Source: Dictyostelium firmibasis (lineage: Eukaryota; Evosea; Eumycetozoa; Dictyosteliales; Dictyosteliaceae). Taken from it: DNA of 64,000 nt. The notes under the pieces are model-generated. The model did not search any database. It saw only the letters and a program-made list of their open reading frames with translations, and had not been told where the DNA came from. The stretch covers positions 205,001 to 269,000 of the forward strand of contig CM069765.1 in the NCBI GenBank assembly GCA_036169595.1. The letters run 5' to 3'. Each line of letters opens with the position of its first letter. The first letter of the stretch is position 1. Made by a program: the position numbers and the translations under genes. Positions 27,772-58,331 of this stretch are shown here, one piece after another.

Positions 27772-27866
27772 AAAATTTATTATTTTTTTATGATAAGAAC
27801 TCGATATGTAGTTTCGACAGTTTTTTTTTTTTTTTTTCCTATGATTAGACGCACAAATGTTTATGT

Positions 27867-28040
27867 TTTTTTTTTTTTTACCTATTCAAGGGTTGCGCCT
27901 TGTGACGGTTTTCCGTTAGGAGGCGAGTGGGAATCGAACATCGTGTCTGGTAGGTGCCTGTTCTATATAATTGATACAATTTATATAATCACCGACGGGC
28001 AGAGCTATATTTCCAAACCTGTTTTTTTATGCTAACGAGT
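27867..28040 (-). mobile_element. Putative tRNA-related SINE, type c
   Basis: A 174-bp insertion is flanked by perfect 15-bp direct repeats (CACAAATGTTTATGT at 27852-27866 and 28041-28055). On the minus strand it has an A-box-like TAGCTCTGCCCGTCGG, then a B-box-like TGTTCGATTCCC (about 27933), and ends in a run of about 13 A next to the target duplication. That is the structure of a SINE or RNA retrocopy made by target-primed reverse transcription. It lies 112 nt past the 3' end of tRNA-Ser in the same orientation as the tRNA, the side used by TRE3 LINEs. Only one copy is in this window. Confidence 0.65.
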
Positions 28041-28126
28041 CACAAATGTTTATGTAAAATTGTAAAAACCAAACTGGAATGAAAAACCGAAAGTTTTTAT
28101 TTTAATTTTTTATATTTACACTATCA

Positions 28127-28137
28127 AGCGTCGAACC
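28127..28137 (-). promoter_or_regulatory. External B-box-like motif of tRNA-Ser
   Basis: Minus-strand GGTTCGACGCT resembles the Pol III B box (GGTTCGANTCC) and lies exactly 30 nt beyond the tRNA-Ser 3' end. D. discoideum tRNA genes are known to carry extra B-box consensus copies in their 3' flanks; the same 30-nt spacing recurs at three other tRNA genes here. Confidence 0.6.
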
Positions 28138-28167
28138 CTCGACCTTATTTATGGTATTGCATAACTC

Positions 28168-28248
28168 GACATCGGCAGGGTTCGAACCTGCGCCTCCGAG
28201 GAGATTTGATTTCAAGTCAAACGCGTTAGACCACTTCGCTACGATGTC
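28168..28248 (-). tRNA. tRNA-Ser (UGA)
   Basis: This 81-nt gene has a 7-bp acceptor stem GACATCG/CGATGTC. The A box is in TAGCGAAGTGG and the anticodon loop reads CTTGAAA (anticodon TGA). A long variable arm (TCTCCTCGGAGG region) is typical of class II tRNA-Ser, and the T arm carries the B box GGTTCGAACCC. No intron. A TRE5-type LINE lies 5' of it and a SINE-like insertion 3' of it. Confidence 0.95.
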
Positions 28249-28575
28249 AGATGATGAATTTTTTGTGATAGAACTGGTAACATAACCTCTATTAAGAAAA
28301 ATTTTTATCAACTCCAACATCCACTTGATTATTTTATTTTAATCACTTAAATTCATTATTATTTTATTATTAAATTAAAGATAAACAGTATCTATCTACT
28401 GTAAATCTTTATTTCTTTTTTTTTCTTTTTTCTTTTTTTCGATAATTTTGCGCAAGCGAAATTCTTAAAAAAAAAAAAAAAAAAAAAAAAAAAAAAAACC
28501 AAACAAAAAATAAAATTAAAGATTCAAGAATTTTACATTTTCAAAAAAAAATAGAAAATCCAGAATAAAAAGAAA

Positions 28576-29838
28576 ATGAGTTCTTACGCAGAAATAACAA
28601 AAATTAGTGGAATAAATGGCGACAAAATATTCCAAGAAATAAGCGAAACTGTCTTTAAAACTCAAAAAATTTTCAAAACTTACAAATTTATGATCAACAT
28701 AAAAGAAGAAGTAAATGAAGAACTTAAAAACAAACTACAAAACCTCTCAGTAGGAGATGGGGACAAAATAATCATAAGTAATGGCAAATACAAAGTACTC
28801 ACAGACCATAAAGAAACAGTGAGAAAAATAATGCCAAAAATCAAATCGGCCTTAAAGGGGATCCACAAAACAACGATCAGACCCCTAATAAAATTCTCCG
28901 AATTCAACTGGATAAACTCATTAAAATCAGTCAAAGAAATCATGGTAAAAAGTGGCATAGAAATAATCTACACCACAATCAAAAATAAAACTCTAAAAAT
29001 CTACTCGTTCAACACAATTAAAGAGAATGTAGAAGATAAAATTATAAATTACGAGTATATCTCGGTAATGTGCCACAGTAACACCAAAAAGGTCGATAGC
29101 GAAGAATTAAATAACAAAAAAGAATCAATTCAAAAAGAGATGTTAACTCAAAACTCTCAAACAGAAACAAAAACAAAAGACTCCAAAAAAGTAGAGTCAA
29201 CAGCCAATACACCAAAAGAAGACACAACTATATTAGCCTTCAACAGCCGAGAAGAATTAAAAGACTTTGAGGAAATAATAAAAGAATCCAAAAAGAGCTC
29301 TGAAACAACAGAGACAACTAAAACAATTGTAGAAGATCCTCAATTAAAAATAAGCATCACATCACCACTAAAAAACTTTAAACAAGACGACTTAGAAATT
29401 CTAACACAAGAGTCAGAAGTTTCCCAAGATCTCAATACCCAATCACAAAACGACTCTGGAACAGAATCCTCAGTAACAAAGAATTACCACTCCGCTATAA
29501 GACAAGAAGGAGAAACCGAAGAGAACTTCGAAAGTAGATTAAAATACATGGTTGACGAAGCATATCTTCAAGAAAAAAATTATAAAGAAAAATGGAACAA
29601 AGAAGTTTTTAAAGTACCAAGCCTCTCCTTCAAAATTCCGGAGACAAGAAACACACCCGTGAAACTCAATTTTCAAGGATATAAAACACAAGAATCGATT
29701 CTCTCACCAAAGAAAGGATACATTTACCCTTCATACAACCAAAACGAACTTGAACAAATAAGCGCAAGTATTAACCAATCACTAAGGAAAATCTCACCAG
29801 AGTTATCAATAGATTTAACAAACTCCAAAAATAAATAA
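28576..29838 (+). CDS. TRE5 ORF1 protein
   Basis: A 420-aa frame starting MSSYAEITKISGINGDK. It is Lys/Glu/Thr-rich and hydrophilic, with no zinc knuckle visible. The central ordered part includes RPLIKFSEFNWINSLKSVKE and IEIIYTTIKNKTLKIYSF, and the C-terminal third looks disordered. In TRE5-A, the ORF1 product is reported to contact TFIIIB subunits and so to guide integration to tRNA genes; I infer the same role here from position. The last 20 bases overlap the ORF2 frame. Confidence 0.85.
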   Translation: MSSYAEITKISGINGDKIFQEISETVFKTQKIFKTYKFMINIKEEVNEELKNKLQNLSVGDGDKIIISNGKYKVLTDHKETVRKIMPKIKSALKGIHKTTIRPLIKFSEFNWINSLKSVKEIMVKSGIEIIYTTIKNKTLKIYSFNTIKENVEDKIINYEYISVMCHSNTKKVDSEELNNKKESIQKEMLTQNSQTETKTKDSKKVESTANTPKEDTTILAFNSREELKDFEEIIKESKKSSETTETTKTIVEDPQLKISITSPLKNFKQDDLEILTQESEVSQDLNTQSQNDSGTESSVTKNYHSAIRQEGETEENFESRLKYMVDEAYLQEKNYKEKWNKEVFKVPSLSFKIPETRNTPVKLNFQGYKTQESILSPKKGYIYPSYNQNELEQISASINQSLRKISPELSIDLTNSKNK

Positions 29839-57433: not shown

Positions 57434-57780
57434 TTTTTTTTTTTTTTTTTTTTTTTTTTTTTTTAATATTATTGGGATTAGAATTTCTAATCACCATGTT
57501 TTTTTTTTTTTTTGTTGTTGTTTTTTTTGGAAGTCGAGCTTTTTTCCGGTTGATTATGAGGTGTGTTATTTATGACCACGTTACTTCGTGGTATGACCTA
57601 AGGCTCGAACCAAGGCCACGGAGACTGTGTGACTCAGCGCAGAACCTCTACGTATAGCCTCCAATAATGAGGTTTTTAATTATGACCACTTTACTTCGTG
57701 GTATGACCAAGACTCGAACCCAAGGTCTTGGCCACGGAGGCTTGTGATTCAGCGTGGAACCACTACGCTAAGCCCCCCGA
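57434..57780 (-). mobile_element. Putative dimeric tRNA-related SINE, type a, copy 2
   Basis: Nearly identical to the element at 48622-48974. Unit L has a perfect A box TAGCGTAGTGG (57760-57770), a B box with one mismatch GGTTCGAGTCT (57710-57720) and hairpin. Unit R (about 57565-57671) is the diverged tRNA-like repeat. The tail includes the palindrome GATTAGAATTTCTAATC (57476-57492) and an A-tail of over 30. It is flanked by a 10-bp target duplication, TTGACAATTT at 57424-57433 and 57782-57791. It lies 74 nt past the tRNA-Glu 3' end, in tRNA orientation. Confidence 0.8.
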
Positions 57781-57824
57781 TTTGACAATTTCATAGTTCA
57801 TTTGAGTTTAGGGGTGTCTAGGAA

Positions 57825-57835
57825 GGAATCGAACC
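57825..57835 (-). promoter_or_regulatory. External B box of tRNA-Glu
   Basis: Minus-strand GGTTCGATTCC is a perfect B-box consensus exactly 30 nt beyond the tRNA-Glu 3' end. The SINE target repeat begins 33 nt further on. Confidence 0.65.
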
Positions 57836-57865
57836 CGTGACCATTCATATTATAAAATTAAAAGC

Positions 57866-57936
57866 TCCCCATTCGGGAATCGAACCCGAGGTACCAGTGT
57901 GAAAGACTAGAGTGTTACCGACTACACCAATGAGGA
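57866..57936 (-). tRNA. tRNA-Glu (UUC)
   Basis: A 71-nt gene with acceptor stem TCCTCAT/ATGGGGA (one T-G pair), D arm in GGTGTAGTCGGTAACAC, anticodon stem CTAGT/ACTGG with loop CTTTCAC (anticodon TTC), and B box GGTTCGATTCC. No intron. It is flanked by a type a SINE on its 3' side and a type b SINE on its 5' side. Confidence 0.95.
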
Positions 57937-57982
57937 TGTTGATATTTTTTCAAGAAAAAACAATAGAATTTAGACAAAAAAT

Positions 57983-58151
57983 TAGGGGGTGGTTTCACAC
58001 TGAATAACACAGCCTCCATGGCCTTGGTTCAAGTCTTGGTCATACCACGAATTAACGTGGTCACAGAAAAAAAATTTTAAAATAAAATAATTAATAAATA
58101 AAAACATGATTCGAACACATCCAATTGGATGAGGTTATTAAAAAAAAAAAA
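57983..58151 (+). mobile_element. Putative tRNA-related SINE, type b, 5'-truncated copy
   Basis: Matches the copy at 33639-33815 from GTGGTTTCACAC onward, so the first half of the A box is missing. It keeps the B-box-like GGTTCAAGTCT, hairpin ACCACG/CGTGGT, palindrome CATCCAATTGGATG (58118-58131) and A-tail. The 13-bp target duplication is TTAGACAAAAAAT at 57970-57982 and 58152-58164. It begins 33 nt upstream of the tRNA-Glu 5' end, exactly the spacing of the TRE5 at tRNA-Ser, with the same orientation. Confidence 0.8.
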
Positions 58152-58331
58152 TTAGACAAAAAATAAAAAAACAATCGAATTTAGGCTTAATAATTGCCAA
58201 CAATTTTTAAAGGATAATTGTATTACAGATTGAATATATTTTTTAAAAACAAATTTAGATAAAGACAAGTTTAAACTTGTCTAGTTATTTAATCTGAATT
58301 GAAAGGGAAAATTACCGAACAACCTATTGGT

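Follow-up and report, generated by a model that had tools for sequence, protein, structure and literature searches.

In a stretch of 64,000 nucleotides (nt) of the Dictyostelium firmibasis genome (assembly GCA_036169595.1, contig CM069765.1, C1:205001-269000; hereafter the window), short A-tailed repeats of three types, a, b, and c, are found beside tRNA genes that also have long interspersed nuclear elements (LINEs) of TRE5- and TRE3-like appearance as neighbors. This arrangement raises the question of how such small elements come to lie on a particular side, and on a particular strand, of a tRNA gene. We consider it highly likely that a, b, and c are three families of short interspersed nuclear elements (SINEs) which are copied via the proteins of tRNA gene-targeting LINEs and inherit the landing sites of the latter, type b by a LINE designated F2, types a and c by one or more TRE3-like LINEs. 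The genome, 31.5 Mbp in 12 contigs with 379 tRNAs as reported (PMC11193728), was analyzed in an assembly that comprises 31,455,843 bases, likewise in 12 contigs.

Three SINE families in D. firmibasis

Comparing the window with itself revealed two copies of type a (∼350 bp including the tail, 97% alike), two copies of type b (95% alike), and a single copy of type c. Type a is a dimer, the two related halves of which are 79% alike. These halves are 76–82% alike with the heads of type b, while the tails of a and b fail to align. The reference units measure 314 nt (a), 168 nt (b), and 236 nt (c); many type c copies extend beyond the length of the 5′-truncated window copy and open with AACTGGACGCTC. 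When the whole assembly was searched for the tail patterns, tolerating up to three mismatches and using the reversed pattern as the control, 129 type a, 224 type b (36-nt pattern; two of these belong to F2 LINEs), and 44 type c tails were found, and none with the reversed patterns. All three types are short, repeated, A-tailed, and flanked by target repeats, which are the hallmarks of SINEs. Target repeats were detected around 38 of the 60 copies of type a in which they were sought, 39 of the 90 of type b, and 26 of the 39 of type c; when flanks were paired across loci as the control, they appeared in 7 of 300, 8 of 450, and 0 of 195 pairings, respectively. B-box-like motifs are present in a, b, and c, and A-box-like motifs were recognized by eye in a and b. 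The idea that the SINE heads are members of the tRNA family was dropped, because the Rfam tRNA model recognized none of them at an E value of 5. At one locus (L003), four type b copies lie in tandem on one strand, with a fifth piece on the other, and no tRNA gene is found across the 3.2-kb stretch.

Each SINE family keeps to one side and one strand of tRNA genes

In the window, where tRNA genes were located with ARAGORN and Rfam, the tRNA-Glu(TTC) gene (57864..57936, minus strand; both programs) has a SINE on either side. At its 5′ side, a type b copy (57983..58151, plus strand), which aligns from reference position 15 and is therefore shortened or altered at its 5′ end, lies on the opposite strand, its target repeat TTAGACAAAAAAT (57970-57982 and 58152-58164) being 33 nt away from the tRNA 5′ end (57936). 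At its 3′ side, a type a dimer (57434..57781, minus strand; target repeat TTGACAATTT at 57424-57433 and 57782-57791) lies on the same strand as the tRNA gene at a distance of 72 nt by our count (74 nt in a preliminary description of the window). The 5′-truncated type c copy (27866..28040, minus strand; target repeat CACAAATGTTTATG at 27852-27865 and 28041-28054) is found 111 nt 3′ of tRNA-Ser(TGA) (28166..28249, minus strand; ARAGORN and Rfam), again on the same strand. Two window copies are less tidy. The other type a dimer (48627..48975, minus strand) has no visible target repeat and lies 180 nt 3′ of an intron-bearing tRNA gene (49156..49246, minus strand; Rfam) on the same strand. The other type b copy (33637..33815, plus strand; target repeat CATATTTG at 33629-33636 and 33816-33823), which sits inside a TG..CA repeat resembling a long terminal repeat (LTR), is 5.4 kb away from tRNA-Ser because a TRE5-like LINE lies between the two.

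For mapping across the genome, SINE copies were picked by similarity alone. There were 69 matches to type b, 64 to type a, and 43 to type c (40 candidates scored each, out of 313, 270, and 57, respectively). After exclusion of partial rows, 42 matches of type b, 43 of type a, and 40 of type c entered the mapping, and 36, 41, and 38 copies were retrieved. The tRNA genes at their loci were called with ARAGORN, the search radius around each copy being 1.5 kb. Type b was found 5′ of the nearest tRNA gene and on the opposite strand in 32 of the 36 cases. Of the 41 type a copies, 40 lay 3′ of the nearest tRNA gene and one lay 5′ of it, all of them on the same strand as the gene. Type c shared the 3′, same-strand position in 29 of 38 cases, with two copies 5′ on the opposite and one 5′ on the same strand. 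Two of these three 5′-side copies (L036 and L042) sit just 3′ of a type b SINE on the same strand, and two of the six c copies lacking a tRNA gene within 1.5 kb turn out to lie 3′ on the same strand as well, one via a tRNA-Sec gene (L052), the other via L111. When the tRNA-proximal element of each flank was considered (all filtered copies in the loci), every one followed the rule of side and strand (b, 49/49; a, 41/41; c, 27/27), at distances reaching out to 855 nt (b), 1,109 nt (a), and 167 nt (c). For a random point, the chance of falling within 150 nt of a tRNA gene, on the stated side and strand, is ∼0.0009 (379 tRNAs, 31.46 Mb). Nine further type b tails, picked by hand from the matches to the 36-nt pattern, served as a hold-out set; in six of them, the prediction of place and strand was borne out by a tRNA gene 43–52 nt away. 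Each SINE family has one landing side and one strand, type b just 5′ and types a and c just 3′ of tRNA genes. The segregation by type which the preliminary description had proposed from the window thus holds genome-wide, for the 36 b, 41 a, and 38 c copies as well as for their neighbors, and placement is fixed for each type, not random.

Type b also keeps a characteristic distance. Between the tRNA 5′ edge and the start of the target repeat, the median was 33 nt, with 17 of 24 usable values at 28–34 nt, and 32 of the 49 tRNA-proximal copies begin 40–53 nt from the tRNA gene. The preliminary description had pointed out a gap of 33 nt for both the TRE5-like LINE at tRNA-Ser and type b at tRNA-Glu, and this agrees with our measurements in the window and with the genome-wide median of type b. 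The values for the other two families are spread more widely, between 41 and 286 nt for type a (median 109; 32 values) and between 29 and 149 nt for type c (median 46.5; 20 values). Such a distribution might be thought to arise from wide insertion, followed by selection which, in a gene-dense genome, spares only copies near tRNA genes; at a reported mean gene density of 70.6% (PMC11193728), random insertions should often be harmful. Selection by itself, however, would yield neither a single strand and a single side per family nor an offset of 33 nt kept within a few nucleotides (as in those 17 of 24 values), and it would not separate a and b, whose heads are related, to opposite sides. We consider this explanation very unlikely.

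TRE5-like LINEs lie 5′ and TRE3-like LINEs mainly 3′ of tRNA genes

When the second open reading frame (ORF2) of the window LINE was used as the search query (40 of 111 candidates scored), LINE families could be distinguished by their ORF2 identity to it: F1 (∼100%, i.e., the window TRE5), F2 (43%), F3 (33–34%), F4 (34%), F5 (33–34%), and F6 (30%). Among the candidates scored, F1 is represented by at least 10 full-length ORF2 copies and F2 by two copies with most of ORF2, one of which contains a stop, the other being open over a frame of 1,159 amino acids (aa). The window copy of F1 (28295..33525, plus strand; target repeat TAACCTCTATTA at 28283-28294 and 33526-33537) has open frames for ORF1 (427 aa) and ORF2 (1,163 aa) and lies 33 nt from the 5′ end of tRNA-Ser (28249); at locus L017, the corresponding gap is 32 nt. 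The two long F2 copies are placed in the same way: each is on the opposite strand at the 5′ side of a tRNA gene, and their gaps, with target repeats determined by eye, are 34 and 35 nt. F1 (in the window and at L017) and both long F2 copies are therefore placed as TRE5 elements are, ∼50 bp 5′ of tRNA genes and in opposite orientation. A reverse transcriptase was detected with PF00078, and ORF2 of the TRE5-like LINEs matched, at 49–57%, proteins of D. discoideum and D. citrinum annotated only as hypothetical, and no named TRE5.

The 3′-end pieces of the LINEs were filtered by identity, length, and G+C content, because A-rich chance matches swamped the unfiltered counts, above all those of F3. 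Within 1.5 kb, eight F1 pieces lay 5′ of a tRNA gene on the opposite and four on the same strand, and four were without a tRNA gene. Pieces of F3–F6 lay mostly 3′ on the same strand (F3, 5/7; F4, 9/10; F5, 13/15; F6, 7/10), which is the location of TRE3 elements. F3–F6 are called TRE3-like by this location, their relatedness having been measured only as the 30–34% identity to ORF2 of F1; the 5′ junctions of longer TRE3-like copies were read for F3 (two copies) and F5 (three copies). In the window, a 5′-truncated F5 relic (35209..35854, minus strand; target repeat GCATTGGGG at 35200-35208 and 35855-35863), in which 35223-35855 is 96% identical to a genomic F5 3′ end, lies 3′ of an intron-bearing tRNA gene (35934..36024, minus strand; Rfam; Ala(tgc) according to ARAGORN, isotype uncertain). 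Their distance is 70 nt by the Rfam coordinates, as counted before, and 68 nt by those of ARAGORN. Two F2 relic pieces (36549..36744, plus strand; 80% and 88% identity) are found at the tRNA's 5′ side, on the opposite strand. The opposite polarity of TRE5- and TRE3-like elements around tRNA genes, suggested previously for the window, is thus seen in F1 and F2 (5′, opposite strand) and in F3–F6 (mainly 3′, same strand). Scanning with PF00078 (150 of 178 candidates scored, sorted by hit and frame length) recovered the same long frames and revealed no seventh full-length LINE family; the remaining matches were, on the same grounds, taken for LTR- and DIRS-type elements. By eye, the F2 LINEs at L096 and L097 start with about three tandem copies of a 5′ module of ∼200 bp.

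Type b carries the 3′ end of LINE F2

The 3′ ends of the SINEs were aligned with those of F1–F6 of the same genome. The terminal 33 nt preceding the poly A are identical in type b and F2 (33/33), the type b copy beside tRNA-Glu in the window being one of those with this tail, and the tails of both elements fold into the same small hairpin. Type b and F2 thus have a 3′ end in common over 33 nt, as is characteristic for stringent SINEs; types a and c show weak resemblances to LINEs. As type b carries the 3′ end of F2 and lands at the same spot, it very probably borrows both the machinery and the address of this LINE. A type b RNA, which we infer to be transcribed by RNA polymerase III (Pol III) like those of the other two SINEs, would end in the 3′ sequence of F2, that is, in a short hairpin followed by poly A. 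Proteins of F2, bound to this tail, would prime reverse transcription of the RNA at sites ∼33 nt 5′ of tRNA genes and in the opposite orientation, so that the SINE is mobilized in trans. A site-specific LINE accepting a foreign RNA through its 3′ tail would, in this manner, deliver it to the LINE's own site.

Anchored at the 3′ end, the tails of type b and F1 gave a score of 2, which is no match, and F1 was rejected as the likely partner of type b. One could still imagine that the F2 tail is a fossil and that type b is mobilized by the abundant F1, which has 10 full-length ORF2 copies and gaps of 32–33 nt, whereas F2 is rare among the 40 of 111 candidates scored. The score of 2, the match of type b with F2 over 33 nt, and the one F2 copy with an open frame over ORF2 all speak against this, and we think it improbable. 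The notion of type b hitchhiking on TRE5 proteins, put forward in the preliminary description, therefore appears correct regarding the class of LINE, but its partner is probably F2 and not the TRE5 of the window.

Types a and c share the sites of TRE3-like LINEs

Of 90 tRNA genes, 72 are followed within 130 nt at their 3′ side by an external B box (GGTTCGANYCC-like, with at most one mismatch), which for 64 of these genes is 27–39 nt away; shuffled flanks contained none and the 5′ flanks of tRNA genes one. The box lies between the tRNA gene and the SINE in 34 of 40 cases for type a and in 16 of 27 for type c. In D. discoideum, external B boxes are described as landmarks for TRE3 (review, PMC5911963). 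Types a and c may be copied by one or more of the TRE3-like LINEs (F3–F6), whose landing sites are at the 3′ side of tRNA genes, on the strand of the gene and in most cases past the external B box that follows the tRNA at ∼30 nt. The best tail resemblances were those of type a to F5 and F4 (p = 0.013 and 0.017, respectively; hairpin, then ..TAATATT), and of type c to F6 (p = 0.007) and F3 (p = 0.017; ending in ..ATAGGT); these p values are nominal (3′-anchored, 300 letter shuffles each, 18 comparisons) and would not survive correction. For type b, both site and tail agree with those of a LINE; for types a and c, the site does and the tail does not. The proposal that a, and perhaps c, hitchhikes on TRE3 proteins is consistent with the position and strand of these SINEs and with the external B boxes; a LINE with a strictly matching 3′ tail was not found among F1–F6. 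Two further candidates were rejected. No strict LINE partner was recognized among 100 of 129 type a and all 44 type c tail places, and type c is not the 3′ end of a TRE3-like LINE, as it is present downstream of one of the two copies read for each of F3–F6 and absent from the other; where present, it follows the poly A, from which another piece of LINE separates it in one case.

Types a and c differ from each other in their distance to the tRNA gene (p = 0.00009) and in the length of their target repeats (p = 0.00017), copies from the same locus being nonindependent in both comparisons, and may therefore use different LINEs. These differences also bear on whether one relaxed, poly A-based machinery might serve a, b, and c alike, with the Pol III-like head of the SINE setting the side by way of transcription factors on its RNA or DNA. 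Such a machinery would be in line with the poly A at the end of all three SINEs and with the absence of a strict LINE tail in a and c. It would account neither for the 33 terminal nucleotides which type b has in common with one LINE, nor for the opposite sides taken by a and b despite heads that are 76–82% alike, and we think it hardly probable. Instead of the two neat SINE-LINE pairs envisaged before, we see three families of SINEs, probably served by two machineries or more, and the opposite polarity of the former pairs stands.

As the related heads of a and b are joined to different tails and the two families occupy opposite sides, it is probably the tail, and not the head, that determines the side of the tRNA gene. 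A wider proposition, to which we would give an even chance, is that the 3′ tail serves as an address label, directing SINEs with related heads to opposite sides via different LINE machineries, and that the B-box-like motifs of the SINEs act as extra landing pads, where TRE3-like LINEs and SINEs insert within a SINE just past the motif.

Several observations weigh against the SINEs being copied by tRNA gene-targeting LINEs. There was no tRNA gene in the 500-base stretch at three of the nine hold-out tails, nor within 1.5 kb of four b copies (out of 36) and six c copies (out of 38); no target repeat was found for 22 of the 60 copies of type a, 51 of the 90 of type b, and 13 of the 39 of type c; and the failure of the SINE heads to match the Rfam tRNA model at an E value of 5 means that their tRNA-like promoter rests on the box motifs. 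Moreover, the comparisons with F1–F6 yielded no strict 3′ tail match for a or c, and F2 is scarce (two copies with most of ORF2, one with a stop) relative to ∼220 type b tails. Finally, what the genome sequence displays is the side, strand, distance, target repeats, and A tails of the SINEs, the identity of the b and F2 tails, and the landing site of F2; transcription by Pol III, binding of the tail by protein, movement in trans, and the choice of a TRE3-like LINE by a and c are inferred.

Relation to known systems

The closest parallel to type b is TRE5-A.2, a nonautonomous derivative of D. discoideum TRE5-A that is apparently mobilized in trans by the TRE5-A ORF2 protein (PMC5391098). In the same work, 80.2% of the integrations of a tagged element, TRE5-A-bsr, were located within 47 ± 3 bp upstream of tRNA genes. 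Like type b, TRE5-A.2 keeps the upstream tRNA address, but it lacks only ORF2, whereas type b is devoid of any notable ORF, starts with a tRNA-like head, and has just the 3′ tail in common with the LINE. The dictyostelid TRE5 and TRE3 elements themselves resemble the present case in their sides, their orientations, and the external B box (PMC5911963, PMC5006619); unlike a, b, and c, they are autonomous LINEs. The R2 and R2/R1 SIDEs of Drosophila are similar to type b in that a short element borrows the machinery of a site-specific LINE and reaches the same target (PMC3414825). SIDEs differ in being internally deleted and cotranscribed with 28S rRNA, in not being SINEs according to the authors, and in their target, which is rDNA and not the flank of a tRNA gene. 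Stringent SINE-LINE pairs share a 3′ sequence just as b and F2 do, but a fixed address beside a class of genes goes unmentioned in the available sections of the reports on them (PMC3414825, PMC7245038).

RepeatMasker tallies of 88 SINEs in D. discoideum and 57 in D. purpureum have been published (PMC4683709, Table 1). They stem from a library search in default mode and, in the part available, come without family, sequence, or position relative to tRNA genes, so that their relation to a, b, and c cannot be deduced. The word SINE is absent from the main text of PMC5006619, PMC5633606, and PMC11193728; PMC5911963 mentions it in general terms only, at four places. In the literature searched, which for the most part did not include subscription papers, no named or mapped dictyostelid SINE family was found. 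Transposable elements of D. firmibasis were annotated in a tblastx search that used the D. discoideum subset of Repbase (PMC11193728), a procedure expected to miss noncoding SINEs. Types a, b, and c add a repeat class to this genome and illustrate that, in a compact genome, the copies of a small parasite can exceed by far those of the LINE with the same tail. As minimal natural substrates (∼170–350 nt) carrying the address of a LINE, they also make it possible to ask whether the tail, the LINE proteins, or Pol III factors choose the side.

Nested insertions and further observations in the window

F5 and F3 copies are found inside SINEs of types c and a, respectively, past B-box-like motifs (L083/L111, C4:247500-253385; L059; L085/L108, C1:12500-18646). 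An F3 copy with the target repeat CCCTCATTATTG lies inside a type a SINE, ∼40–50 nt past the first B-box-like motif, and an F5 copy with the target repeat GTTAGCATAAAAAAA inside type c, ∼10–25 nt past such a motif (both sites determined by eye). Another type c copy, at L059, is interrupted at nearly the same place by a second F5 copy without a target repeat; the repeat first assigned to this insertion was wrong and came from a neighboring intact c copy. A survey of nested insertions gave 18 events, eight of which were of low complexity by eye; the others, even together with the insertions just described, are too few for a statistic on B boxes. That the boxes of SINEs serve as landing pads is, at these small numbers, a lead.

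Between 33526 and 33600 of the window, the target repeat of the TRE5-like LINE occurs, by eye, a third time (AACCTCTATTA), following a stub of ∼9 nt that resembles the F1 3′ end and poly A; this is probably the remnant of an earlier, almost wholly 5′-truncated TRE5 insertion at the same site. The stretch from 27821 to 27853, adjoining the window copy of type c, matches LINE F3 over 33 nt at its extreme 3′ end, including poly A.

Two identical TG..CA repeats of 143 bp, which flank ∼77 bp (49263-49625), are located 15 nt 5′ of a tRNA gene and look like a miniature LTR element. At 10 of the 91 tRNA genes of the loci, the same 143-bp repeat was found 12–19 nt away on the 5′ side, and it occurs there in either orientation; its spacing is similar to the ∼15 bp reported for DGLT-A (PMC5006619). 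Lastly, the window contains a direct repeat of 1.3 kb (49815-51084 and 53087-54392), the two copies of which are 90% alike.

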